The position numbers and the translations under genes were made by a program. From the NCBI GenBank assembly GCA_017402445.1, contig JAFPME010000008.1:1-54143 (forward strand): a stretch of DNA of 54,143 bases, in the 5' to 3' direction. Under the pieces are notes generated by a model. The model saw only the letters and a program-made list of their open reading frames with translations, did no database searches and had not been told where the DNA came from. Origin of the DNA: Prevotella sp. Lineage in GTDB: Bacteria > Bacteroidota > Bacteroidia > Bacteroidales > Bacteroidaceae. This document shows, one piece after another, positions 42,477 through 53,364 of the stretch; position 1 is the stretch's first letter; each line of letters starts with the position of its first letter.

Positions 42477-42657
42477 GTGGAGAGCGGAATGCTTTTTCGT
42501 TGACAGCAGCATGGCATGGTATGATTACCCCAAAACCACAAAGCGCAGCAGTCTCCTGACCTCATAAGCTCAGGCGAAACCGAAGCTTGCGGCAATCAAG
42601 GAGTCAATTCATGAACATACGAAAAGGTCTCGGAGGACACAAAAGAGCAAAAAAAAT

Positions 42658-42939
42658 TACCAAAAAAAACGGTAGGATTTTTCTGACGTTTTAGAAGAAA
42701 GAAAACACCTGAAACGGTAAAAAGTCCATACATTTTCGCTCCTTGATGCGGCCGATTTTTCAAAATGGCCCGAATAGCGTCGCAAAACGGCTCATTCTGA
42801 ACGACAGAATGGCTCATTTTGCTCGATGAAATGGCCCGTTTTCGAGTGTAAAATGGGCCATTTTGCAAGCTTCTGAAATGTAAAGAAAATACAAGTGCTT
42901 AGCTGTGAGACAGTTAAAAAAGTCGCAAATTTCGCGCAT
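42658..42939 (+). repeat. Repeat module A: five 22-bp palindromic units with conserved flanks
   Basis: The core is five consecutive 22-bp units (starts 42761, 42783, 42805, 42827, 42849), each an AARAYGR-N-YCRTTYT type 7-1-7 palindrome plus a 7-bp spacer; unit 5 is perfect and unit 1 decayed. It is followed by AAATGTAAAGAAAATACAAG (42876-42895) and, 33 bp later, ATTTCGCGCAT (42929-42939). 86 bp before the array is a TACC/GGTA hairpin (42658-42674) with T-rich sequence after it. Module B at 53 kb repeats this order and spacing in inverse orientation. The gap 42477-43183 holds no supported gene. Confidence 0.85.
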
Positions 42940-43106
42940 TTGCAAGCTCCGGCACTTTCGTTTTCAAATAATCGATTCTCAGAGCACTTTTTTCGACTTT
43001 TTGTCCGCTTTTTTCAGTGCCCGGAAGGGGCGGCGGATGCTGGGCACGATGACCCGAGGGAACGGCCTCGGCAGCCTTGTTATACACATTGTTATCCTGT
43101 TGAGAG

Positions 43107-43137
43107 TTGCTTCGGGTCGCGCTGCAGGCTACCTTTG
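43107..43137 (+). promoter_or_regulatory. Promoter of the smalltalk gene
   Basis: TTG (43107-43109), 20-bp spacer, TACCTTTG (43130-43137). Full consensus. About 20 bp upstream lies TGTTATACACAT (43079-43090), the same 12-mer as before the M15 gene, containing a DnaA-box-like TTATACACA. Confidence 0.75.
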
Positions 43138-43183
43138 CAGCGACAAAACCGAGTTATTCACCTTTTTAAAAACACTGAAAGCC

Positions 43184-43285
43184 ATGAAAAAAGAAGACTG
43201 GAAAATGGTTCTGAAACTGGTGGTGGCCATCGCAACGGCCATCCTGAGCACGCTCGGCGTGGCCAGCTGCGCACATCTGTTCTGA
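43184..43285 (+). CDS. Smalltalk family small membrane protein
   Basis: 33 aa: a charged start (MKKEDWKMVLK), one hydrophobic segment (LVVAIATAILSTLGVASC) and a short tail. This matches the 'smalltalk' micro-proteins of Bacteroidetes, which usually lie between an HU-like DNA-binding protein gene and a peptidoglycan amidase gene. Neither partner is adjacent here. The gene has its own full-consensus promoter and its own terminator, so it is transcribed alone. The TLGVASC end could be a lipobox-like site, though the segment may simply span the membrane. The function is unknown. Confidence 0.85.
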   Translation: MKKEDWKMVLKLVVAIATAILSTLGVASCAHLF

Positions 43286-43289
43286 TTCG

Positions 43290-43323
43290 AAGCCGCGGCT
43301 CCTGCAGGGGGCTGCGGCTTTTC
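43290..43323 (+). terminator. Terminator of the smalltalk gene
   Basis: Stem AAGCCGC (43290-43296) with GCGGCTT (43314-43320) and extra internal pairing, followed by a short T run, 5 nt after the stop. Confidence 0.75.
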
Positions 43324-43401
43324 AAATCAACGTCGCAGCGCAGAGCGACTGCCTTCTTTCCGTCTTCTCGTCCTCATTCTGCATGATTTTCGGACAAATT
43401 G

Positions 43402-43432
43402 TTTGTCAATTCAAAATAATTGTCTATATTTG
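43402..43432 (+). promoter_or_regulatory. Promoter of the DUF4254-GT9 operon
   Basis: TTTG (43402-43405), 19-bp spacer, TATATTTG (43425-43432). Full consensus. It lies 27 nt before the ATG at 43460. A small ACAAA/TTTGT inverted repeat covers the -33 box. Confidence 0.75.
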
Positions 43433-43459
43433 CCGAAACAAATCATCAAACACCAAGAA

Positions 43460-44065
43460 ATGACTTTCACACAACAATGCAACGAAATCTTCGGGCAGGC
43501 CATACGCGACTACCACGAAAAGGACGACATCGACACGCCTATCAGCAACCCTTACGAGCGAGACTCCATTGAGAACAGGCTCTATCTGAAATGCTGGATT
43601 GACACCGTGCAGTGGCATCTCGAGGACATCATACGCGATCCGCACATCAATCCCATCGACGCACTCGGGCTGAAACGCCGTATCGACCGCTCGAACCAGG
43701 ACCGGACGGACCTCGTGGAGCAGATTGACAGCTATTTCCGCCAGCGCTACAGCGAGGTGAAACCGCTGCCCGAAGCACGGCTGAACACGGAGAGCCCGGC
43801 GTGGGCCGTGGACCGGCTGAGCATTCTCGCCCTCAAAATCTACCACATGCGCGAGCAGGCCGAGCGTCAGGACGCATCGCCCGAGCACCGCGAGACGTGC
43901 CGGGGCAAGCTGGGCGTGCTGCTCGAACAGCAGGTGGACCTCTCCACGGCCATCGACCAGCTGCTGGAAGACATCGAGGCCGGCCGCAAATACATGAAGG
44001 TGTATCGGCAGATGAAGATGTACAACGACCCCGCCACCAACCCCGTGCTCTACAAGAAAGCATAA
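43460..44065 (+). CDS. DUF4254 protein
   Basis: 201 aa, soluble, helical. It begins MTFTQQCNEIFGQAIRDYHEKDDIDTPISNPY and contains WHLEDIIRDPHINP and LARLNTESPAWAVDRLSILALKIYHMREQ-like family blocks, then ends with coiled helices. In Bacteroidales this family is nearly always next to a family 9 glycosyltransferase, as here (61-nt gap). It probably assists or modifies lipopolysaccharide or capsule assembly; no activity is known. The start follows the promoter; the longer frame upstream overlaps it. Confidence 0.82.
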   Translation: MTFTQQCNEIFGQAIRDYHEKDDIDTPISNPYERDSIENRLYLKCWIDTVQWHLEDIIRDPHINPIDALGLKRRIDRSNQDRTDLVEQIDSYFRQRYSEVKPLPEARLNTESPAWAVDRLSILALKIYHMREQAERQDASPEHRETCRGKLGVLLEQQVDLSTAIDQLLEDIEAGRKYMKVYRQMKMYNDPATNPVLYKKA

Positions 44066-44126
44066 GCACACGCGGAGTCTGCACCAAGGGAGGACAGCAG
44101 AAGGTAGATCCAAAGAACCGTATGGA

Positions 44127-45179
44127 ATGAAAACAGAACACATACTGGTGATTCGCTTCTCAGCCATCGGCGATATTGCAATGGTGGTGCCCGTCGTGGC
44201 ATCCATGGCCAAGCAGTATCCTGACGTGCGAATCACCGTGCTGAGCAAGCCGTTCGTCAGACCCTTGTTCGAAAACCTGGCCACAAACGTGGGATTCATG
44301 GGCGCCGACTTGAAGAGCGAATACCACGGCGTGCGCGGACTGAACGCCCTCTACCGGCGGCTCACGGCCAAACAGTTTACCGCCGTGGCCGACCTGCACA
44401 ACGTGCTGCGCTCGGAGTTTCTGCGGCTGCGCTTCAATCTGGGCCGCTACAAGGTGGCACACATCAACAAGCACCGCAAGGGAAAGCGCATGTTGGTGAG
44501 GCAGAAGAACAAGGTGATGCGCCAACAGCCCACGTCCATACAGAACTATATGGACGTGTTCAAGAAGCTCGGCTACCCCGTGAAGCTCGACTTCACGAAC
44601 ATCTACGAGCAAGCGGCGCCTGACCTGACGCTGCTGCCGCCCGACTTCGCTCAACCCAAAGGCAACGGACCGTGGATCGGGGTGGCACCTTTCGCCGCTC
44701 ATGCCGGGAAGGTGTACCCGCAGGACCTGATGGAGAAGGTGATTGCCGGACTGACGGAGAGGTATCCCGAGGGGCGGCTATTCTTCTTCGGAGGGGGGGC
44801 GACCGAAATGGAGGCCTTCGACCGCTGGGCAGCGGCCTTTCCGCAGTGCGTGAACGCCTCGAAGCAGCTGAACGGCTTCCAACAGGAGCTGCTGCTGATG
44901 AGCCGTCTGGACGTCATGCTCTCGATGGACAGCGGCAACATGCATCTGGCCGTGCTCGCCGGAACGCCCGTGGTGAGCATCTGGGGAGCCACGCATCCCT
45001 TCGCGGGATTCTTAGGCTACGGCATGACTGAAGACAATGTGCTGCAAGTGAACGACCTCGACTGCCGTCCGTGCAGCGTCTTCGGCAACAAATCGTGCCT
45101 GCGTGGCGACTATGCGTGCCTCAGACGCATCACGCCCACGATGGTGATTGAGAAGATTTCAGCGATGCTGCACGTCTGA
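44127..45179 (+). CDS. Glycosyltransferase family 9 (heptosyltransferase-like)
   Basis: 350 aa, GT-B fold. The N terminus ILVIRFSAIGDIAMVVPVVASMAKQYPD and C-terminal SMDSGNMHLAVLAGTPVVSIWGATHP are hallmarks of ADP-heptose:LPS heptosyltransferases, and FGGGATEM marks the sugar-nucleotide side. The Cys-rich tail (CRPCSVFGNKSCLRGDYACL) is usual in Bacteroidetes members. It acts at the cytoplasmic face during lipopolysaccharide core synthesis. The exact donor sugar is not predictable. It shares an operon with the DUF4254 gene. Confidence 0.9.
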   Translation: MKTEHILVIRFSAIGDIAMVVPVVASMAKQYPDVRITVLSKPFVRPLFENLATNVGFMGADLKSEYHGVRGLNALYRRLTAKQFTAVADLHNVLRSEFLRLRFNLGRYKVAHINKHRKGKRMLVRQKNKVMRQQPTSIQNYMDVFKKLGYPVKLDFTNIYEQAAPDLTLLPPDFAQPKGNGPWIGVAPFAAHAGKVYPQDLMEKVIAGLTERYPEGRLFFFGGGATEMEAFDRWAAAFPQCVNASKQLNGFQQELLLMSRLDVMLSMDSGNMHLAVLAGTPVVSIWGATHPFAGFLGYGMTEDNVLQVNDLDCRPCSVFGNKSCLRGDYACLRRITPTMVIEKISAMLHV

Positions 45180-45308
45180 ATCAACATGATCGTGGACGGT
45201 TGACGCCTGAGAGAGCTTCTGAGGCTGAAGTCTTTTGTATGGTCACCACTCGTAAAACATTCTCTACACCTAAACCCCTTTATTAACATCATAAAAAACA
45301 AAAGCATT

Positions 45309-45467
45309 ATGAAGAAGTACATTTGTGACACTTGCGGTTACGTTTACGACCCCGAAGTAGGCGATCCTGATAACGGCATCGAGCCCGGAACAGCATTTGA
45401 AGACCTGCCCGAAGACTGGGTGTGCCCCCTTTGTGGCGTCGGCAAGGAAGATTTCTCTGAGGAATAA
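45309..45467 (+). CDS. Rubredoxin
   Basis: 52 aa. The two iron-binding pairs are CDTCGY (Cys 6 and 9) and CPLCGV (Cys 39 and 42), with the aromatic core residues of rubredoxin ([33 protein letters not shown] pattern, here split by position: residues 11-42). It is a one-electron carrier in the cytoplasm, often feeding peroxide or superoxide reductases in anaerobes. Full length, own strong terminator. Confidence 0.95.
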
Positions 45468-45474
45468 GCTCAAC

Positions 45475-45511
45475 AAAAAACCGCCTTACTTTACTGAAAG
45501 GCGGCTTTTTT
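45475..45511. terminator. Terminator after rubredoxin
   Basis: CCGCCTT (45481-45487) pairs with AAGGCGG (45498-45504), with A6 before and T6 after, 14 nt after the stop. It could work in both directions. Confidence 0.9.
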
Positions 45512-45621
45512 GCTTTATGACGGAATGCCTGAAAACAAGTTTGTTTTAACTTGTGCCCGTTTTTCCCGTAACATCTGAACAACTTACTCAGCACCTCGGC
45601 ATAAAAAATAAACAGGTTTAT

Positions 45622-45652
45622 TTTGTTCTGCGCTCGTTTTTCTGTAACTTTG
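45622..45652 (+). promoter_or_regulatory. Promoter of serB
   Basis: TTTG (45622-45625), 19-bp spacer, TAACTTTG (45645-45652). Full consensus, 19 nt before the serB ATG. Confidence 0.85.
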
Positions 45653-45671
45653 CACCCTGACAAACTGCATA

Positions 45672-46907
45672 ATGGAACAACAAACAATACTCAAAGAAGA
45701 ACAGATCCTGGTGAGAATCACCGGGCAAGACAGGCCGGGACTGACCGCTTCGGTGATGGGAATACTGGCTAAGTACGACGCGAAAGTGCTCGACATCGGA
45801 CAGGCCGACATCCATTCCACACTCTCGCTGGGCATCCTTATCCGCATTGAAGAGAACCACTCGGGACAGGTCATGAAGGAACTGCTGTTCAAAGCTACCG
45901 AACTGGGTGTGAACATCGGCTTCGCACCCATCACCGACGATGAATATGAGGCGTGGGTGGGGCGTCAGGGCAAGAACCGATACATCCTCACGCTCATCGG
46001 GCGCTCGCTGTCGGCACGCCAGATAGAGGCCGCCACGAAGGTCATCGCGCAGCAGGGACTCAACATCGACAACATACTTCGGCTGTCGGGACGCATGAGT
46101 CTGCGCAACACGGAAAAGAAAGTCCGAGCCTGTATCGAGTTCTCGCTGCGAGGAGAACCGCATAACCGCTCGCAGATGCAGGCACAGCTGATGCACCTGT
46201 CGGCCGAAATGGCGTTCGACTTCTCGCTGCAGCGCGACGACATGTACCGCCGCAGCCGTCGGCTCATCTGCTTCGACATGGACTCCACGCTCATACAGAC
46301 CGAGTGTATCGACGAACTGGCCGTGCGAGCCGGTGTCGGCGAACAGGTGAAAGCCATCACCGAGAGTGCCATGCGCGGCGAAATAGACTTTAAGGAGAGT
46401 TTCACGCGCAGGGTGGCGCTGCTGAAAGGGCTCGACGTGAGCGTCATGCAGGACATCGCCGAGCATCTGCCCATCACCGAAGGTGCTGATCGTTTAATGA
46501 CAGTCCTGAAGCGTTGCGGCTACAAGATTGCTATCCTGAGCGGTGGTTTCACCTATTTCGGCGAGTTTTTGCAGCGCCGCTACGGCATCGACTACGTGTA
46601 TGCCAACGAATTGGAGATTGACGATGAGGGTAAGTTGACGGGCCGTTACGTGGGAGACGTCGTGGACGGACACCGAAAGGCTGAGTTGCTGAAGCTCATC
46701 GCGCAGGTGGAGAAGGTGAACCTGGCGCAGACCATCGCCGTGGGCGACGGTGCCAACGACCTGCCCATGCTCTCGGAAGCCGGACTGGGCATCGCTTTCC
46801 ACGCCAAGCCGCGCGTGGTGGCCAACGCGAAGCAGTCCATCAATACCATCGGACTTGACGGTGTGCTCTACTTCTTGGGCTTCAAGGACTCGTATGTAGG
46901 TGAATAA
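45672..46907 (+). CDS. serB: Phosphoserine phosphatase SerB with two ACT domains
   Basis: 411 aa. Last step of serine synthesis. Two N-terminal ACT-like regulatory domains (ILVRITGQDRPGLTASVMGIL at about 10-90; ILTLIGRSLSARQIEAATKVI at about 100-180) suggest amino-acid feedback. The HAD phosphatase core has the nucleophile in CFDMDSTLIQTECIDELA near 200, ILSGGFTYFG, and VGDGANDLPMLSEAGLGIAF. Full length. The helicase gene follows after 19 nt, so cotranscription is likely. Confidence 0.94.
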   Translation: MEQQTILKEEQILVRITGQDRPGLTASVMGILAKYDAKVLDIGQADIHSTLSLGILIRIEENHSGQVMKELLFKATELGVNIGFAPITDDEYEAWVGRQGKNRYILTLIGRSLSARQIEAATKVIAQQGLNIDNILRLSGRMSLRNTEKKVRACIEFSLRGEPHNRSQMQAQLMHLSAEMAFDFSLQRDDMYRRSRRLICFDMDSTLIQTECIDELAVRAGVGEQVKAITESAMRGEIDFKESFTRRVALLKGLDVSVMQDIAEHLPITEGADRLMTVLKRCGYKIAILSGGFTYFGEFLQRRYGIDYVYANELEIDDEGKLTGRYVGDVVDGHRKAELLKLIAQVEKVNLAQTIAVGDGANDLPMLSEAGLGIAFHAKPRVVANAKQSINTIGLDGVLYFLGFKDSYVGE

Positions 46908-46926
46908 GTCATTCCTCCTGTAAACG

Positions 46927-49131
46927 ATGAGCGATAATGACGAACTTCGACTGGCTTGGGACTTCGTTGAAAACACGGGCGTGAGCATCTTTCTCACAGG
47001 AAAAGCGGGAACGGGAAAGACAACATTCCTGCGCGCCGTACAGCAACGAAGCCCAAAGCGCATGGTGGTGGTAGCCCCGACAGGCGTGGCGGCTATCAAT
47101 GCTGGCGGCATGACCATCCATTCGTTCTTCCAACTGCCCCTCTCTCCGTTTGTTCCCGAAAGCATGTTCAAGCAGCGTTTCGACTTCTCGAAGGAGAAGA
47201 AGCGCATTATCCGCACCATCGACCTGCTGGTCATCGACGAGATTTCGATGGTGCGGTCCGACTTGCTCGACGCCATCGACAGCGTGATGCGCCGTTTCCG
47301 GGACCCGAGACGACCGTTCGGAGGCGTACAACTGCTGCTCATCGGAGATTTGCAGCAGCTTACGCCTGTCGTTACGGCCGAAGACGAGGCTATCCTGAGC
47401 CGTTATTACGACACTCCATACTTCTTCGGTTCCAAAGCATTGCAGCAGACGCCTTACGTCACGCTGGAGCTGAAGCACGTCTACCGCCAACAGGACGAGG
47501 AGTTCCTGAGCATCCTCAACCATATCCGCGTAGGCCGACCCTCTGCCGAGGACATTGCGAAGCTGAACAGCAGGCTCTTGAGCAATACACAAAGTGCACG
47601 GGCAGTGCAGAGCGGGCAGAATCCGTTCGACGACGGCGGCTCTTTCATCCGGCTGACTACGCACAACCGCATCGCCGATTCGTACAATGAGAACGAACTG
47701 CTGAAGCTTCGCGAACAGCCATACCACTTCCAAGCCCAGATAGAAGGGACGTTTCCTGAATACGCGTATCCCACGGATGTGACGCTGACGCTCAAGCGCG
47801 GCGCACAAGTCATGTTCGTCAAGAACGACCCTTCGGCCGAGCACCGTTTCTACAACGGGCGCATCGGGCGCATCACCAGCATCAGCGACAAGGCCATCAG
47901 CGTGCGTTGCGACGACGACGAGGAAGACATTCAGGTGGAACCGCTTGTGTGGGAGAATGCAAAATACGAGCTGAACCCTGACACAAAGGAAATAGAAACA
48001 AAGATACAAGGCACGTTCCGGCAATATCCGCTGCGGTTGGCATGGGCCATTACCATCCATAAAAGTCAGGGACTGACCTTTGAACGTGCCGTCATCGATG
48101 CCTCTCAGTCGTTCGCAGCAGGTCAGGTTTATGTGGCCCTGAGCCGTTGCAAGTCGCTCAAAGGGCTGCGGTTAGCCTCGCCGGTCAATCCGTCGACCAT
48201 CTTCGGCGACCGTCGTGTAGAGGCATATATCGCCCGCGAGGAGGAAGAAGCGACAAAGAGCATCGCCGCCCTGCCCTCGCTGAAGGAACAGTTTCATCGC
48301 GAACAGCTACGCGAACTGTTCGACTTCAGCGAACTGGAGCGCAAATATGGTTTCTTGCTGCGCCAACTTGAAGAACATTTCTACAGCACCTATCCGCGAC
48401 TATGTGCAGCTCACCGCGTATCACGCAACGAACTGACGCAGAAAATCGTCCTCGTCTCGCGCAAGTGGATGGAAGTTATCTCGAAAATGCCCGCTGCCAG
48501 CTTGCTCGAAGCAGCCTTCCTGCAGCGCATCAACCGCAGTGCCGTCTACTTTTTGAACATGCTCACCGACCTGCTTGGCGACCTGTTGCAGAAAACGAAC
48601 GTAGACACGGACAACAAAACCGTGCAGCGCCGCTTGAACGACGCCCTGGCCGACTGTCTGCTTGCCTACCAGATCAAGACGGCCATACTCGCTGCCATTG
48701 CCAAGGACGGCTTTACGCCCAGCTCCTATCTCCATCTGAAGCAGCAGGCACTGCTGAATGCCATCGACAAAACAGACGACACAACAACCGCAAAAACAAA
48801 CAAAAGACGCAAATCGCAACATTCGTCCAAACCTTCGGCAAAGTTTTCGCAGGCCACTTCCGCCAGCGGAAACAGCAAAGCAGCCCGTCCGGCCGTCAGC
48901 GACGACATTCAGGACAAGCTGCTTTACGAGCAACTGCGCAACTGGCGCTGGGAAAAATCGAAGGAACTGGACCTCGCCCCTTACACCATTCTTCAGCAAA
49001 AGGCACTTGTGAACATTGTCAACACGAAGCCGTCAACGCTCGAGGAGCTTGTTGCCATTCCGCATTTCGGAAAGGTCAGTGCCGAAAAGTACGGCCGCGA
49101 CATCCTGGACATTGTCCGGAAGCACTCCTGA
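46927..49131 (+). CDS. Pif1/RecD-like superfamily 1 helicase with C-terminal HRDC domain
   Basis: 734 aa. Walker A LTGKAGTGKTTFLRAV near 24, VVVAPTGVAAINAGGMTIHSFF, Walker B LLVIDEISMVRSDLLDAID near 100, GDLQQLTPVV, and the C-terminal helicase motifs WAITIHKSQGLTFERAVID and VYVALSRCKSLKGLRL. After a helical region and a low-complexity Thr/Ser/Lys linker (about 615-655), an HRDC-like domain ends the protein (ELVAIPHFGKVSAEKYGRDILDIV). It probably unwinds DNA, perhaps G-quadruplexes as Pif1 does. This architecture is common in Bacteroidetes. It lies downstream of serB in one unit. Confidence 0.9.
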   Translation: MSDNDELRLAWDFVENTGVSIFLTGKAGTGKTTFLRAVQQRSPKRMVVVAPTGVAAINAGGMTIHSFFQLPLSPFVPESMFKQRFDFSKEKKRIIRTIDLLVIDEISMVRSDLLDAIDSVMRRFRDPRRPFGGVQLLLIGDLQQLTPVVTAEDEAILSRYYDTPYFFGSKALQQTPYVTLELKHVYRQQDEEFLSILNHIRVGRPSAEDIAKLNSRLLSNTQSARAVQSGQNPFDDGGSFIRLTTHNRIADSYNENELLKLREQPYHFQAQIEGTFPEYAYPTDVTLTLKRGAQVMFVKNDPSAEHRFYNGRIGRITSISDKAISVRCDDDEEDIQVEPLVWENAKYELNPDTKEIETKIQGTFRQYPLRLAWAITIHKSQGLTFERAVIDASQSFAAGQVYVALSRCKSLKGLRLASPVNPSTIFGDRRVEAYIAREEEEATKSIAALPSLKEQFHREQLRELFDFSELERKYGFLLRQLEEHFYSTYPRLCAAHRVSRNELTQKIVLVSRKWMEVISKMPAASLLEAAFLQRINRSAVYFLNMLTDLLGDLLQKTNVDTDNKTVQRRLNDALADCLLAYQIKTAILAAIAKDGFTPSSYLHLKQQALLNAIDKTDDTTTAKTNKRRKSQHSSKPSAKFSQATSASGNSKAARPAVSDDIQDKLLYEQLRNWRWEKSKELDLAPYTILQQKALVNIVNTKPSTLEELVAIPHFGKVSAEKYGRDILDIVRKHS

Positions 49132-49160
49132 GACAGCAGGCTGCAGCCCAATCGTTACGC

Positions 49161-49868
49161 TCAGAACTCGATGCCGAAGTTGAGCATCAGCGCGCTGTTG
49201 CGCGCGTCGTCGAAGGCGTTGTGCGACACATTGGCCAGACCCAGGTCGTAGGTCACGTCGGCATAGAGCATGTCGTAGCGCAGTCCGCAGCCCAGACGCA
49301 GTCCGCCGTCGAAGCGTTGGAACGTGTAGGGCGAGTCGGAGAACGACTTGTAAGCCTCGCGCTGTCCGAAGTCCTTGATGTTTCCGCCTACACCGCAGGC
49401 CACATAGCCGCCGATGAAGGGCTCAACCGAGAATGCATTGTCAACATAGTGCTTGTACTTGAACACCAACGGGAACTCCAGATAGTCCAGATTGTACGTG
49501 AACCGCGTGCCGTCGGCCTTGCCCTTGCCGCCTTTCTGCGTGTAGTAGATACCCGTTTCCAGATAGAGCGGCGTATGATTAGAGATGCCGAAACCGGCGG
49601 CGAACCCTACGTTCAGGCCCGTCTTCATGCTGCTCCCGTCGAGATAAGGATCGTCGCTGCTCACTGTAGTGAACGCCGGACCGACGCGGAAGCCATAATA
49701 GCTGTCCATGAATGAAGCGGGACGGGTGCGGTACGTGGTGCGACTGCCGCCGCGATAGTCCAGTCGGCCGGTTCGCGGATTGTAGTAACGGCTGTTCTGA
49801 TAGTGCTGCGCCTGCATCGGCAGAGCGGCCATGAGGCCTACGATGGCCATGAGTATGAGCTTCTTCAT
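49161..49868 (-). CDS. PorT-like outer-membrane beta-barrel protein
   Basis: 235 aa. Signal peptide MKKLILMAIVGLMAALPMQAQ, a Tyr/Arg-rich linker, then an eight-strand-type barrel (YYGFRVGPAFTTVSSDDP, LNVGFAAGFGISNHTPLYLETGIYYTQKG, LEFPLVFKYKHY, FIGGYVACGVGG) closing with LMLNFGIEF. This is the 'porin family / PorT' pattern of Bacteroidetes; no transport role is proven. Convergent with the helicase gene, 29 nt between stops. Confidence 0.82.
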   Translation of the reverse strand: MKKLILMAIVGLMAALPMQAQHYQNSRYYNPRTGRLDYRGGSRTTYRTRPASFMDSYYGFRVGPAFTTVSSDDPYLDGSSMKTGLNVGFAAGFGISNHTPLYLETGIYYTQKGGKGKADGTRFTYNLDYLEFPLVFKYKHYVDNAFSVEPFIGGYVACGVGGNIKDFGQREAYKSFSDSPYTFQRFDGGLRLGCGLRYDMLYADVTYDLGLANVSHNAFDDARNSALMLNFGIEF

Positions 49869-49974
49869 GTTCTTCTTCCTTTCTTTTTAAGTTCAAAAAA
49901 AAATTGTTTCCTTGCTTTTCGTTTGCAAAGGAACAACTTTTTCGTCACTGCCACAAAGGTTTTTTCCTAATAGG

Positions 49975-50016
49975 ACGTGGGGAAAACCCTACTTGAAAGT
50001 CTTGTTTCCCCCACGT
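49975..50016. terminator. Hairpin between the SpoU/TrmH methyltransferase and the PorT-like gene
   Basis: ACGTGGGG (49975-49982) pairs with CCCCACGT (50009-50016), and further A/T-rich pairs extend the stem inward. It lies 60 nt after the methyltransferase stop on the minus strand. A clear T run is missing on both sides, so a terminator role is only probable. Confidence 0.4.
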
Positions 50017-50076
50017 ATTCATTGTCAGTCAATCCTCCGAGCCGACCGTCTCCGGATGCTGAAGCAGTCACGAAGG

Positions 50077-50685
50077 TCAGCGACGGGGCACCCCTTCGGC
50101 CAACAACAGCTGCCGGGCGAACTCCCAAATGACGATGCCGGCCGTCACGGAGACGTTCATAGAGTGCTTCGTTCCGAACTGCGGTATCTCCAAACAGCCG
50201 TCGCTCAGGTCGACAACTTCCTGATGGACGCCCTTCACCTCGTTGCCCAGCACCACGGCGAATGCGCGGTCACCCAACTCCCCGGGCGGGATGTCCTGGC
50301 CCCCCAAGCCCCCGAGGGGGATGTTGCGGACAGAGAGATCCAAGGTGCTCAGCTTCGTGCTGCCCTCACACTGCTCCACGGCATAGACGAAAAAGTGCTG
50401 TCTGTGCAGTTCCTGAACGGCTTCCTGCGCCGTCGGGAAGTATCGCCACGCCACACTGTCCTCGCCGCCGAGCGCCGTTTTGTGGATTTCGGGATGCGGA
50501 GGCGTCGCCGTGATGCCACAGAGGTAGACAGCTTCCACGCGGAAAGCGTCGGCCGTGCGGAAGACGGAGCCGATGTTGTACATCGACCGCACGTCGTCGA
50601 GCACCACAACGAGCGGCAGTTTCTGCGCCTGTCTGAACTCCTGGAGCGTCAGGCGCTGCATCTCTATGGTTCTCAGTTTTCGCAT
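50077..50685 (-). CDS. SpoU/TrmH family RNA methyltransferase
   Basis: 202 aa. SPOUT-fold 2'-O-methyltransferase for tRNA or rRNA: motif 1 VVVLDDVRSMYNIGSVFRTADAFRVEAVYLCG near 26, motif 2 VVLGNEVKGVHQEVVDL and motif 3 IPQFGTKHSMNVSVTAGIVIWEFARQ. The start MRKLRTIEMQR (50685) overlaps the sufE stop by 13 nt; the open frame above it is not family-like. The loop before motif 2 contains IPLGGLGGQDIPPGELGD, partly coded by a GC-rich repeat (50299-50322), an apparent in-frame insertion. The RNA target is unknown. Confidence 0.88.
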   Translation of the reverse strand: MRKLRTIEMQRLTLQEFRQAQKLPLVVVLDDVRSMYNIGSVFRTADAFRVEAVYLCGITATPPHPEIHKTALGGEDSVAWRYFPTAQEAVQELHRQHFFVYAVEQCEGSTKLSTLDLSVRNIPLGGLGGQDIPPGELGDRAFAVVLGNEVKGVHQEVVDLSDGCLEIPQFGTKHSMNVSVTAGIVIWEFARQLLLAEGVPRR

Positions 50686-51113
50686 TTCTTCGTACTGAAT
50701 GCCAGAGCGTACATGCGCATCTGCTTCACCATGGCCAGCAGCCCGTTGGAGCGCGTGGGCGAAAGGTGCTCTTTCAGCCCGATGCGGTCGATGAAATAGA
50801 GATCTGCATCCAATATCTCCTGCGGTGTGTGGCCGCTGAGCACGCGGATGAGCAGTGCCACGATGCCTTTCACGATGAGTGCGTCGCTCTCGGCGGTGAA
50901 CCACAGCAGTCCGTCGCGGTAGTCGGCCTGCAGCCACACGCGGCTCTGACAGCCGTCGATGAGATTGCTTTCCGTCTTGTATTTCTCATCGAGCGGAGCC
51001 TGTTCGTTGCCCAGGTCGATGAGCATCTGGTATTTGTCCATCCAGTCGTCGAAGTCCGAAAACTCTTCGATGACTTCGTCTTGTAATTCGTTGATTGTCA
51101 TATCGTTCTTCAT
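50673..51113 (-). CDS. sufE: SufE-family sulfur-acceptor protein
   Basis: 146 aa. SufE takes persulfide from the cysteine desulfurase SufS for Fe-S assembly. The acceptor Cys is in NLIDGCQSRVWL near residue 62, followed by FTAESDALIVKGIVALLIRVLSGHTPQEI and the C-terminal LSPTRSNGLLAMVKQM, all typical. MKNDMTINEL (51113) is preferred; MTINEL (51101) is also possible. The longer frame to 51185 only translates the 55-bp repeat upstream. It overlaps the methyltransferase gene by 13 nt, so both are translated from one mRNA. Confidence 0.9.
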   Translation of the reverse strand: MKNDMTINELQDEVIEEFSDFDDWMDKYQMLIDLGNEQAPLDEKYKTESNLIDGCQSRVWLQADYRDGLLWFTAESDALIVKGIVALLIRVLSGHTPQEILDADLYFIDRIGLKEHLSPTRSNGLLAMVKQMRMYALAFSTKKCEN

Positions 51114-51130
51114 TCTATATTCTTCTCTAT

Positions 51131-51335
51131 TCTCCCCTCCCTTTGGGAGGGGCCGGGGGTGGGCTTCCCCCTCTTCATTTTCCATTCTCCCCTCCCTTGG
51201 GGAGGGGCCGGGGGTGGGCTTCCCCCCTCTTCACTTTTAATCTCCCCTCCCTTGGGGAGGGGTTGGGGGTGGGCTTCCCCCCTCTTCACGTTTAATCTCC
51301 CTCTCCTTCGGGGAGGGCCGGGGTGGGGCTTTCTA
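51131..51335. repeat. 55-bp GC-rich palindromic repeat, four tandem copies
   Basis: Copies start exactly at 51131, 51186, 51241 and 51296 (the last shortened and diverged). Each has a CCCCTCCC-GGGAGGGG hairpin followed by a G-rich half, CCGGGGGTGGGCTT. They fill the gap between the U32 stop and sufE and also supply the last codons of U32. Related single copies occur inside other genes. Confidence 0.9.
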
Positions 51336-52566
51336 ATTTAAACAGTTTGTCGCTCGGACGCACCTTTGCCGGAACAGCGATGGACACCCTCGTTCCCTGT
51401 TGCGCCACTTCCACGGGTCCGTTGTCGCCGTGAATCTCGTCGGCCGTCACGTAGATGACGCCCGTTGTGGGTCCGGTGATGAGCATTTTGTCGCCCACGC
51501 TGAAGGTATTCGCTTCGACGCTGAACTCCGCCACGCCCAAACGCGAGAAATATTTCTGCCCGCGGCCGATGTAAACCTTCCGTTCCGTGGCGCACGAGCC
51601 ATATTCTTTGTTCCATTCGCCCATGAGCTGCCCCTGATAGTAGCCGTCCCAGAAGCCGCGGTTGAAGACCCGTGCCAGCCGTTCGTCCCACTCGTCCTTG
51701 CGCTCCGTGGTGAATGTTCCGTCGAGAACGCTCTGGATGGCCTCCTTGTAGCAGCGCACCACCGTGTAGACATACTCCGGTCCGCGCGCGCGTCCCTCTA
51801 TTTTGAACACGCGTACGCCTGCCTTCATCAGCCGGTCGATGAAGCGGACGGTCTTCAGGTCCTTCGGACTCATCAGGTATTTGTTGTCCACTTCTATCTG
51901 ATGGCCCGTCTCGGCGTCGGTCAGAATGTATGACCGGCGGCATATCTGTACGCATTCACCGCGGTTGGCCGAGCGGTTGGCTGCGTCGAGACTCATGTAG
52001 CACTTGCCTGAAATGGCCATGCAAAGGGCGCCGTGGCAGAACATCTCGATGCGGATGGGCTTGCCGGAGGGTCCGCAGATGTGCTGTTCCACCGCCTGAC
52101 GGTGTATCTCCGCCACCTGATCCATGTTCAGTTCGCGCGCCAAGACCACTACGTCGGCGAACTGTGCGTAGAAGCGCAGGGCCTCGATGTTGGAGATGTT
52201 GAGCTGCGTGCTCAGGTGAACCTCCTGTCCCACCTCGCGGCAGTAGGTCATCACAGCCACGTCCGACGCGATGACGGCCGAGATGCGTGCCTCCTTGGCA
52301 GCGTCGATAATCTGTCGCATCAGCGGCAGGTCCTCTCCGTAGATGATGGTGTTCACCGTCAGGTAAGTCTTCACGCCGTGCTCTGCGCAGGTTTGCGCAA
52401 TCTCGCGCAGGTCGTCGACGGTGAACGTCGAAGCGGAATGCGCCCTCATGTTCAGCTTCTCTATGCCGAAGTAGATGGAGTCGGCTCCTGCCTGCAGCGC
52501 GGCTACCAGCGATTCGCGCGACCCGACGGGTGCCATAACCTCAAAATCCTTGATTGTTTCGTTCAT
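51292..52566 (-). CDS. U32 family peptidase / tRNA hydroxylation-type protein
   Basis: 424 aa. MAPVGSRESLVAALQAGADSIYFG at the N terminus and the U32 signature RIEMFCHGALCMAISGKCYMS near 170, followed by a second Cys cluster (NRGECVQICRRSY). U32 proteins such as TrhP/YegQ and RlhA take part in RNA hydroxylation and carry an iron-sulfur site; collagenase activity was described for PrtC. RNA modification seems likelier for this cytosolic protein. The final residues ESPTPALPEGEGD are coded by the last copy of the 55-bp repeat, so the natural C terminus has been replaced or extended. sufE follows downstream. Confidence 0.88.
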   Translation of the reverse strand: MNETIKDFEVMAPVGSRESLVAALQAGADSIYFGIEKLNMRAHSASTFTVDDLREIAQTCAEHGVKTYLTVNTIIYGEDLPLMRQIIDAAKEARISAVIASDVAVMTYCREVGQEVHLSTQLNISNIEALRFYAQFADVVVLARELNMDQVAEIHRQAVEQHICGPSGKPIRIEMFCHGALCMAISGKCYMSLDAANRSANRGECVQICRRSYILTDAETGHQIEVDNKYLMSPKDLKTVRFIDRLMKAGVRVFKIEGRARGPEYVYTVVRCYKEAIQSVLDGTFTTERKDEWDERLARVFNRGFWDGYYQGQLMGEWNKEYGSCATERKVYIGRGQKYFSRLGVAEFSVEANTFSVGDKMLITGPTTGVIYVTADEIHGDNGPVEVAQQGTRVSIAVPAKVRPSDKLFKLESPTPALPEGEGD

Positions 52567-52571
52567 GGCTG

Positions 52572-52602
52572 CAAAGTTACGAATAAGCGAGTGAAATACA
52601 AA
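52572..52602 (-). promoter_or_regulatory. Promoter of the U32-sufE-methyltransferase unit
   Basis: Minus strand TTTG (52599-52602), 19-bp spacer, TAACTTTG (52572-52579). Transcription should start at or within about 3 nt of the ATG at 52566, so the mRNA is probably leaderless. The -33 box belongs to the direct repeat at 52582. Confidence 0.75.
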
Positions 52603-52780
52603 AGGAAAGCTTGCTTTTCTTTTTATTTCTGAGCGAGAGTAACTTATCCAAAGTTACGAAAAATCTGAGTAAGCGAGAAGCAAACAAAATCTTTTGTTTG
52701 ATCGAGCGTGAAGATTTTATTCAATAAGCGAGTGAAATACAAAAGGAAAGCTTGCTTTTCTTTTATTTCCGAGCGAGAGG
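52582..52780. repeat. Imperfect direct repeat of about 57 bp, two copies
   Basis: Copies at about 52582-52638 and 52723-52780 share AATAAGCGAGTGAAATACAA, an AAAAGGAAAGC/GCTTTTCTTTT near-palindrome and GAGCGAGAG. Both are followed by AACTTATCCAAAGT. The period is about 141 bp. The 1240-bp stretch 52567-53806 contains no supported intact gene; it holds these repeats, module B and AT-rich DNA. Confidence 0.8.
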
Positions 52781-53013
52781 AGTTCCTTGAGCGCAGCGAA
52801 AAACTTATCCAAAGTCATGTATAAGCCAGCCAAACACAAACGAGCGTGGACAAAAGCTGTGAGAATACGCCAGTTCGGGATAAAAAGGTGTGTGAAACTT
52901 GGCTTCCCCCTCTACAGGTGACGGTAGTGTAAACGCTGAATTATGCTTACAAAATAACATTTATTATACGAAATGCAGGCCCGTTTTCCAAAATAAAAAT
53001 CTGGTGGACGCGT

Positions 53014-53294
53014 ATGCGCGAAATATGAGAATGTTATAAAGAGCTGGGAACGAACGACTTGTGTTTTCTTTACATTTTTCGGGCATTCAAAATGATTCAT
53101 TTTGCTCTCGAAAACGGCCCGTTTTGCTCGTCAGAATGAATCATTCTGCGCGACAGAATGGGCCGTTTTGCGGCGTAAAATGAGCCATTTTGAAAAACGG
53201 AAAGAAAAATCTTCCTGTTTTGTCCGATTCTTTTATCAAAACAAGCGCTTCCGTCTTCGTAGAATGAAAAAAAAGAATACCCGTTTTTTCGGTA
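53014..53294 (-). repeat. Repeat module B: five 22-bp palindromic units, inverse copy of module A
   Basis: Read on the minus strand, five 22-bp units occupy 53192 down to 53083. Units 3, 4 and 5 are perfect 7-1-7 palindromes with different arms (AGAATGA, AAAACGG, AAAATGA). Then come AAATGTAAAGAAAACACAAG and, 33 bp on, ATTTCGCGCAT (53014-53024). 85 bp before the array is the TACC/GGTA hairpin (53278-53294) with a T run. Total length is 281 bp against 282 bp for module A. Confidence 0.85.
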
Positions 53295-53364
53295 TGAAAT
53301 GTTTACAATCACGCAGCGCCTTCCGGTTGTTTCGCCAATATGGGTTTGACGAAGCGTTGGGGCC

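Follow-up and report, generated by a model that had tools for sequence, protein, structure and literature searches.

The element and its two copies in the window

The window analysed here is the whole stretch of 54,143 nucleotides of contig JAFPME010000008.1 (assembly GCA_017402445.1, Prevotella sp.), and it holds two copies of a repeated non-coding element built around an array of five 22-bp palindromic units. A sequence-only reading had described them as two inverted 281-bp modules, A (42658-42939, forward strand) and B (53014-53294, reverse strand), with the same parts in the same order and with intervals of equal length to within one base. Positions, parts and interval lengths were all verified in the sequence, and the likeness between A and B is far above chance level. 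The conserved stretch is however longer than 281 bp: in 71 stacked copies from the same genome, conservation starts sharply at -236 and fades near +143 of a shared 17-mer, which gives an element of about 380 bp. Its parts lie in the window as follows.

42643..43022, forward strand: copy A, old and diverged, set by the frame -236..+143 around its 17-mer; its two ends are eroded
52931..53310, reverse strand: copy B, a member of a young subfamily, set by the conservation frame and the profile
42761..42870, forward strand: array of A, five 22-bp units in the palindrome register
42761-42777 (broken), 42783-42799, 42805-42821, 42827-42843 and 42849-42865, forward strand: 17-bp palindromic parts of A
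53083..53192, reverse strand: array of B, five 22-bp units in the palindrome register
53176-53192, 53154-53170, 53132-53148, 53110-53126 and 53088-53104, reverse strand: 17-bp palindromic parts of B, slots 1 to 5
42879..42895, forward strand: 17-mer of A, TGTAAAGAAAATACAAG, with 71 places in the genome at two mismatches or fewer
53058..53074, reverse strand: 17-mer of B, TGTAAAGAAAACACAAG
42929..42939, forward strand: ATTTCGCGCAT box of A (family form WWTTCGCGYRTACGCG)
53014..53024, reverse strand: ATTTCGCGCAT box of B
53278..53294, reverse strand: TACC..GGTA inverted repeat of B, with its counterpart in A at 42658-42674
53295..53309, reverse strand: 5' end box of B, TTGTAAACATTTCA
52934..52955, reverse strand: 3' end box region of B (TTTTGTAAGCATAATTCAG)

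The genome carries dozens of copies of locked length

By searching the window's own genome (G000; 1,866,360 bases in 44 contigs, 51% complete) with copy A, we found many copies. First, the 17-mer TGTAAAGAAAAYACAAG occurs in 71 places at two mismatches or fewer, compared to a single place for a reversed control pattern. Second, a sequence-only profile, made like the covariation alignment from 69 of the 71 copies (L068 and L076, whose structure is altered, were dropped), detected at least 79 copies at 114-171 bits among the best 150 of 551 candidates scored, while the remaining 71 of those 150 reached at most 87.5 bits and were the opposite strand of the same places. Since 150 candidates were likewise scored in the profile scans of two other genomes (G240 and G210, below), the copy numbers from these scans are lower bounds. 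Thus, the two copies first described belong to a large set.

Each copy in G000 begins with an end box (TTGTaAAcATTT) and a variable stretch of about 110 bp, followed by the array, the 17-mer, TCGTTTGTTTCCAGCGTTTTAAAAC, a TTCGCGYRTACGCGTCCG block and a second end box (TTTTTTGTcagcaTatTTCA). In the scanned frame the array always has five units at a 22-bp pitch, and each slot has a consensus of its own (taken, like the indel counts and the tree below, from 72 full G000 rows), with GG.CC-type cores in slots 1, 2 and 4 and TGANTCA in slots 3 and 5. T-rich or A-rich alternates (AAAATGTAAAG / TTTTTGTAAAG) were seen at -231..-223, at +126..+133 and just before the 17-mer, where the tracts seem interchangeable. 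The TACC/GGTA hairpin noticed in A and B is present in both but is not a family trait, with TACC in 48 and TACC..GGTA in 19 of the 71 copies.

The length of the element is locked: 52 of the 72 full copies have no indel across 369 interior positions, and the interior columns differ from the consensus by 5,752 substitutions but by no more than 26 indel events. With at least 79 copies and a locked length, a decaying duplication, in which only two copies would exist with no conserved spacing, is clearly contradicted. We also rejected a protein-coding gene, as none of the six frames is open in more than 5 of the 71 copies; stop codons are nevertheless scarcer than in letter shuffles (2.6-5.9 per frame against about 8).

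Copies avoid each other and lie between genes

We then considered how the copies are placed along the chromosome. First, the 50 same-contig gaps in G000 range from 6.6 to 49.9 kb. None is shorter than 6.5 kb, where 17.5 were expected under uniform placement and none of 20,000 simulations was as low, 30 fall between 9 and 18 kb (12.5 expected), and their coefficient of variation (CV) is 0.57 instead of the expected 0.97. The 10.2 kb between A and B are an ordinary neighbour distance, and their inverted layout is accidental, given that neighbour orientations are mixed (16 +-, 14 -+, 10 ++ and 10 --). Second, copies bearing the signature of the young subfamily (20 copies, a smaller set than the 28 G000 rows grouped in the tree) keep as far from old copies, with mixed gaps of at least 8.5 kb. 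Third, we observed the same behaviour in two other species. Over 400 contiguous kb of G210, the 26 copies are separated by 6.8-43.5 kb (CV 0.52); over 380 kb of G100, the 42 copies that score more than 40 bits are separated by 1.8-28.1 kb (CV 0.58). The G210 profile was built from source copies in mixed orientation, so that its 26 loci were merged from both-strand matches (25 of them were later oriented); for G100, 44 loci were found and the weakest two (38.7 and 17.8 bits) were dropped. Against a null restricted to intergenic regions, both species have too low a CV (P 0.00035 for G210 and 0.00045 for G100), and short gaps are depleted: 0 against 8.5 below 6.5 kb in G210, and 1 against 10.6 below 3 kb in G100. 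The 12 copies in 150 kb of P. nigrescens lie 1.6-30.8 kb apart. Together, these data show that copies avoid each other in G000, G210 and G100, with a minimum distance that is not universal.

Several copies lie less than 1 kb from a contig end (C3, C5, C9, C17, C18, C26, C27, C29 and C33), which suggests that the assembly breaks at the repeat. Contigs C21 and C22 differ from most large G000 contigs in carrying no copy.

All 68 copy midpoints in G210 and G100 fall in called intergenic regions or no more than 100 bp from one, and 23 of the 68 are between convergent genes, compared to 71 of 480 intergenic regions. For the 63 of 71 G000 copies with both neighbours called, crude open reading frame (ORF) calls gave 30 convergent, 12 divergent and 21 tandem contexts, with no background for comparison. 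In P. nigrescens, whose gene table is incomplete, 10 of 12 copies are outside the listed coding sequences and 2 are within short hypothetical ones. The G210 hits are spread along its 2.66-Mb contig, from 66 kb to 2.65 Mb among the matches listed.

Half-sites are probably conserved individually in a helically phased array

In B, arms of the units differ and still pair, which had been taken as selection for symmetry rather than sequence. The pairing in B is real, but it does not extend to the family, where perfect 7/7 arms occur in 7, 6, 29, 4 and 18 of 71 copies for slots 1 to 5. Moreover, across the five local hairpins (35 pairs, 69 copies) the summed Watson-Crick frequency is 28.28, compared to 28.48 under column independence, and no covariation measure exceeds its shuffle mean, so that selection for symmetry itself is not borne out. 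A single large hairpin, in which unit 1 pairs with unit 5 and unit 2 with unit 4, is another possible fold of the array. There, pairing is 0.699 against 0.718 under independence, 500 of 500 shuffles have at least as many paired cells, and two-sided pair changes (20, shuffle mean 19.2), one of five measures, are at the mean.

Other observations point toward a fold. As single strands, both A and B fold more favourably than shuffled versions (z -3.8 to -8.2), a behaviour expected of any palindrome array of this kind. The palindromic register is genuine, with 88.3% of cells paired in it and 28-53% in slid versions, and RNAalifold returned a weak consensus of 19 pairs, 3 of them with two-sided changes. 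Given the lack of covariation above shuffles in either hairpin form among the 69 copies, we nonetheless rejected a base-paired RNA or cruciform, and with it the structured RNA that had been proposed. At Rfam gathering scores, the sole match in the whole window is a tRNA elsewhere, and none falls at the element. As pairing is not above independence, we take the half-sites to be kept individually, which favours protein dimers on duplex DNA.

The unit cores differ by species (AAAATGR.YCATTTT in G000, AAACGG.CCGTTT in G210, AAAACnnnCGCTTTT in G100), and the AAA/TTT periodicity of the arrays peaks at 11.00 bp in all three. A- and T-tracts at this 11-bp distance predict a curved array: over 112 bp, a wedge model gave bends of 106 (G000), 88 (G210) and 111 (G100) degrees, where dinucleotide shuffles gave 47, 43 and 46 (mean z 2.5, 2.0 and 2.9; first 40 copies per set, 25 for G210). 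No bend excess was found in three G000 controls, that is the 5' part, the 3' part and the upstream flank. A motif that resembles the IHF consensus is present in 11 of 25 G210 and 20 of 41 G100 copies, while the whole 400 and 380 kb contain 25 and 58 such sites. Taken together, these results support one part of the sequence-only reading, a multi-site, helically phased and probably protein-bound DNA element with fixed spacing.

Copies group by species within a genus-wide family

The profile matched 136 of 299 genomes of the genus at E <= 0.01 (98 at E <= 0.001), the window's own included in both counts, and 69 of 131 high-quality genomes at the former threshold. Outside the genus, 2 of 197 other genomes of the order matched at E <= 0.001 (1.5e-4 and 4.0e-4); 8 candidates per genome were scored in the genus survey and 12 in the order survey. 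Fifteen loci from other genus members mostly showed the same plan with other unit sequences, with no element at one of them (L092 in G012). Among named genomes, a pattern scan yielded a single genuine element, scored at 286 bits in Prevotella sp. UBA2756; in Segatella baroniae it gave a short match without an element. Judged by these matches, the element is a genus-wide Prevotella family that is almost absent outside the genus.

Within the family, copies group by species: the species labels on a tree of 93 copies can be explained by 5 changes, compared to a shuffled mean of 19.2. Copy B falls in a set of 29 rows, 28 from G000 and 1 from the sister species G240, with a Shimodaira-Hasegawa-like approximate likelihood ratio test (SH-aLRT) support of 99, and copy A stands by itself on a long branch. 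Identity averages 69% within G000, 74% within G240 and 65% across; the 79 G000 rows of this comparison come from a separate profile scan that includes 7 flagged partial rows, are not the 79 copies counted above, and lack some identities.

For eight candidate pairs of sites in G240 and G000, the elements are 58-76% identical, and these values rank 28, 1, 72, 11, 44, 65, 3 and 8 among 79 across-species rows. Only some orthologous sites thus retain orthologous sequence. Synteny holds in both flanks at L145/L016 and L147/L070 and in a single flank at L132 and L138, and L133, L134 and L141 have one common neighbour. L143 has a copy in G240 at a site that is empty in G000, and L149 has one where the window has a 734-aa ORF (46927-49131). 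At L132, L138 and L147, flanks that are about 90-100% identical between the two species, over a background of roughly 80%, end at the element. These high-identity runs cover 1423-3890 in L138, 1367-3880 in L132 and 4350-6850 in L147, and their ORFs resemble what we take to be a GH31 glycosidase, a leucyl-tRNA synthetase and a sulfatase with its maturase.

The copy at L130 (G240:C15:6800-12502) is 94% identical to the young G000 subfamily, unlike the other fetched G240 copies, and would reflect either transfer in recent times or a contig that strayed into one of the assemblies. A plasmid or phage origin of B was rejected, since B had no match among plasmids and phages in collections from which the records closest to the window's genome were possibly excluded.

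PINSR is very probably a branch of the same family

The sequence-only reading knew of no named family that fits, but one very probably does. PINSR is a 188-bp repeat with 177 and 184 copies in Prevotella, which the passages of its description used here place downstream of tnaA in P. intermedia ATCC 25611 and two P. nigrescens genomes, without terminal inverted repeats and without a reported function (Naito 2015, PMC4755523). According to the same passages, about three quarters of PINSR regions are common to two strains, few are in strain-specific mobile regions, and some inversions or translocations took place between PINSRs (PMC4755523).

In G100 (1.97 and 0.71 Mb), an element lies 230 bp downstream of tnaA and measures 186 bp from TGTAAA to TTTACA, and the G100 form matches two records of a plasmid collection, both from P. 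nigrescens. Because of this length, close to the 188 bp of PINSR, the site downstream of tnaA and the occurrence in P. nigrescens, PINSR is very probably the P. intermedia-group branch of the element family, as compared by description and not by letters. In the published passages, PINSR is also like the element in being non-coding, intergenic and of high copy number in Prevotella, with sites partly shared between strains and some rearrangement points. The tnaA site and P. nigrescens apply to the G100 form only, whereas the G000 form is about 380 bp long with other unit cores. As to terminal inverted repeats, which PINSR lacks by its description, the two forms differ: the G000 ends are not inverted repeats, and the G100 form ends in TGTAAA..TTTACA. 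The published passages describe neither a five-unit array of 22-bp pitch nor phasing, the spacing of copies or relatives beyond the clade.

Another Bacteroidales intergenic repeat, the BrickBuilt miniature inverted-repeat transposable element (MITE) of Porphyromonas gingivalis, similarly has tandem units of about 22-23 bp between a leader and a tail; as far as its description was consulted, it has 23-nt units without spacers, short terminal inverted repeats and 19 copies (PMC4596501). It is set apart, by description, from the five 22-bp palindromes without terminal inverted repeats of G000. The G000 form does not fit the MITE class, since its 71 copies show neither terminal inverted repeats nor a target-site duplication.

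Beyond the Bacteroidales, the element resembles the BIME, REP and RIP repeats of enterobacteria, which are palindromic composites outside genes, often past gene 3' ends. Gyrase binds to BIMEs and an IHF site is part of RIPs; an architectural role has been proposed for them, and BIME/RIP elements are the closest functional parallel. The Prevotella element differs by its five units at an exact pitch and its fixed flanks, and it is longer, less numerous and spaced apart. The nucleoid-occlusion sites of Noc and SlmA are likewise palindromic and scattered over the chromosome in tens of copies; they are however short, single and sparse near the terminus, whereas the Prevotella element forms large arrays whose G210 hits, among the matches listed, occur all along the 2.66-Mb contig. 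A role in nucleoid occlusion is still conceivable.

A candidate architectural node and its alternatives

The reading that we tentatively favour, at somewhat less than an even chance, is that each copy is a node of the BIME/RIP kind at the ends of transcription units, where several protein dimers sit on curved DNA, with a probable architectural role. Five pairs of palindromic half-sites at an exact 22-bp pitch would form a composite DNA site with a pre-bent array, flanked by TGTAAA-type boxes and, in the two other species, holding the IHF-like motif too. Several dimers of a putative host DNA-binding protein would load on one face of the array, and lack of covariation is what is expected if half-sites are read in duplex DNA. 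The resulting nucleoprotein node would constrain or relieve supercoiling, as has been proposed for BIME/RIP elements in E. coli. Copies would spread and homogenise within a genome by a copying or conversion process, and those near another copy would not be made or not be kept.

Several points weigh against this reading. First, the minimum gap is only 1.8 kb in G100 and 1.6 kb in P. nigrescens, G000 gaps reach 49.9 kb, and C21 (37.8 kb) and C22 (56.1 kb) are copy-free. Second, the about 2.9 Mb of G240 contain at least 35 full-length copies plus a further one that scores 96.8 bits, roughly one third of the G000 density by a model trained on G000 that possibly missed diverged copies; a 13-kb lattice is thus not kept, which weakens a strict ruler role. 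Third, 22-bp palindromes with AT-rich arms yield 11-bp phasing anyway, the wedge parameters were assumed values, and the IHF-like motif is in none of the 71 G000 copies, under the shuffled mean of 2.35. Fourth, the B-type subfamily (28 G000 copies and 1 of G240) shows recent spread, which a selfish repeat explains equally. Finally, we infer rather than observe the binding protein, the architectural role and the mode of spread.

The main rival, possible if rather unlikely in our estimate, is a non-autonomous mobile repeat that avoids its own kind: a transposase or recombinase acting in trans would bind the array and boxes, spacing would result from target immunity or recombinational loss of near copies, and a host function would be absent or secondary. 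It explains the spread of the subfamily, joined at 99% SH-aLRT support by one G240 copy, and the about threefold density difference between the sister species at least as well as an architectural node does. The grouping by species (5 label changes against 19.2), the site L143, filled in G240 and empty in G000, the TGTAAA..TTTACA ends in G100 and the distance of at least 8.5 kb that young-signature copies keep from old ones, as immunity would yield, are all in its favour. However, no target-site duplication is visible across the 71 G000 copies, whose ends are not inverted repeats, and B is without a match in the plasmids and phages searched, with the closest records possibly excluded. In addition, the length lock at about 23% divergence from the consensus exceeds the needs of a passive passenger, and the PINSR sites, by the partial description used here, are three-quarters common to two strains with few in strain-specific mobile regions (PMC4755523).

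A transcription-unit boundary, be it a terminator, an insulator or a small RNA, would stop or shield transcripts between convergent genes by its long hairpin. The convergent enrichment (23/68 against 71/480, and 30/63 in G000 with no background), the folding of the A and B strands, the true pairing register and the three RNAalifold pairs changed on both sides agree with it. We consider it quite unlikely, given that neither hairpin covaries above column shuffles, that tandem or divergent regions hold half of the copies, that orientation is mixed, that Rfam has no match at the element in the window, and that a terminator needs neither locked spacers nor 11-bp phasing. Recombination hot spots or anchors, dispersed homologies allowing segments to be inverted or exchanged between strains, are slightly less likely still. 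In their favour are the flanks of 90-100% identity stopping at the element in L132, L138 and L147, the joining at L132 of flanks of two oppositely oriented G000 copies and the rearrangements listed between PINSRs in the passages used (PMC4755523). Against them, the loci are few, with no background rate of synteny breaks for comparison, any dispersed operon-end repeat would show some of it, and the length lock and phasing would be unneeded.

Extending the architectural node to a chromosome-wide scheme is doubtful, and we hold it unlikely. Dozens to hundreds of pre-curved five-dimer arrays, several kb apart at transcription-unit ends and loaded by a fast-evolving protein, would then form a lineage-specific Prevotella architecture of supercoil-domain boundaries, in which co-evolution of array and protein would change the unit core between species and leave pitch, phase and unit number fixed.

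The mutual avoidance, the length lock, the lack of arm covariation, the 11.0-bp phasing in three species and the grouping by species are new, and no chromosome-organising element was described in the literature searched on Prevotella, a dominant genus of gut, rumen and mouth. Locked length, phased tracts and self-avoidance make the element a test case for nucleoid architecture, or for target avoidance if it is a selfish repeat. PINSR, described as clade-specific, probably becomes one branch of a genus-wide family, and the array offers a concrete bait for finding the putative binding protein.

Other repeats in the window

Two further repeats were noticed in the window. Four 55-bp head-to-tail repeats with a G/C-rich inverted repeat (CTCCCCTCCCTTTGGGAGGGG) lie at 51123-51342 and adjoin the ORF at 51292-52566. 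Near copy B, amid other short repeats, a perfect 42-bp direct repeat occurs at 52582-52623 and 52723-52764, 141 bp apart.

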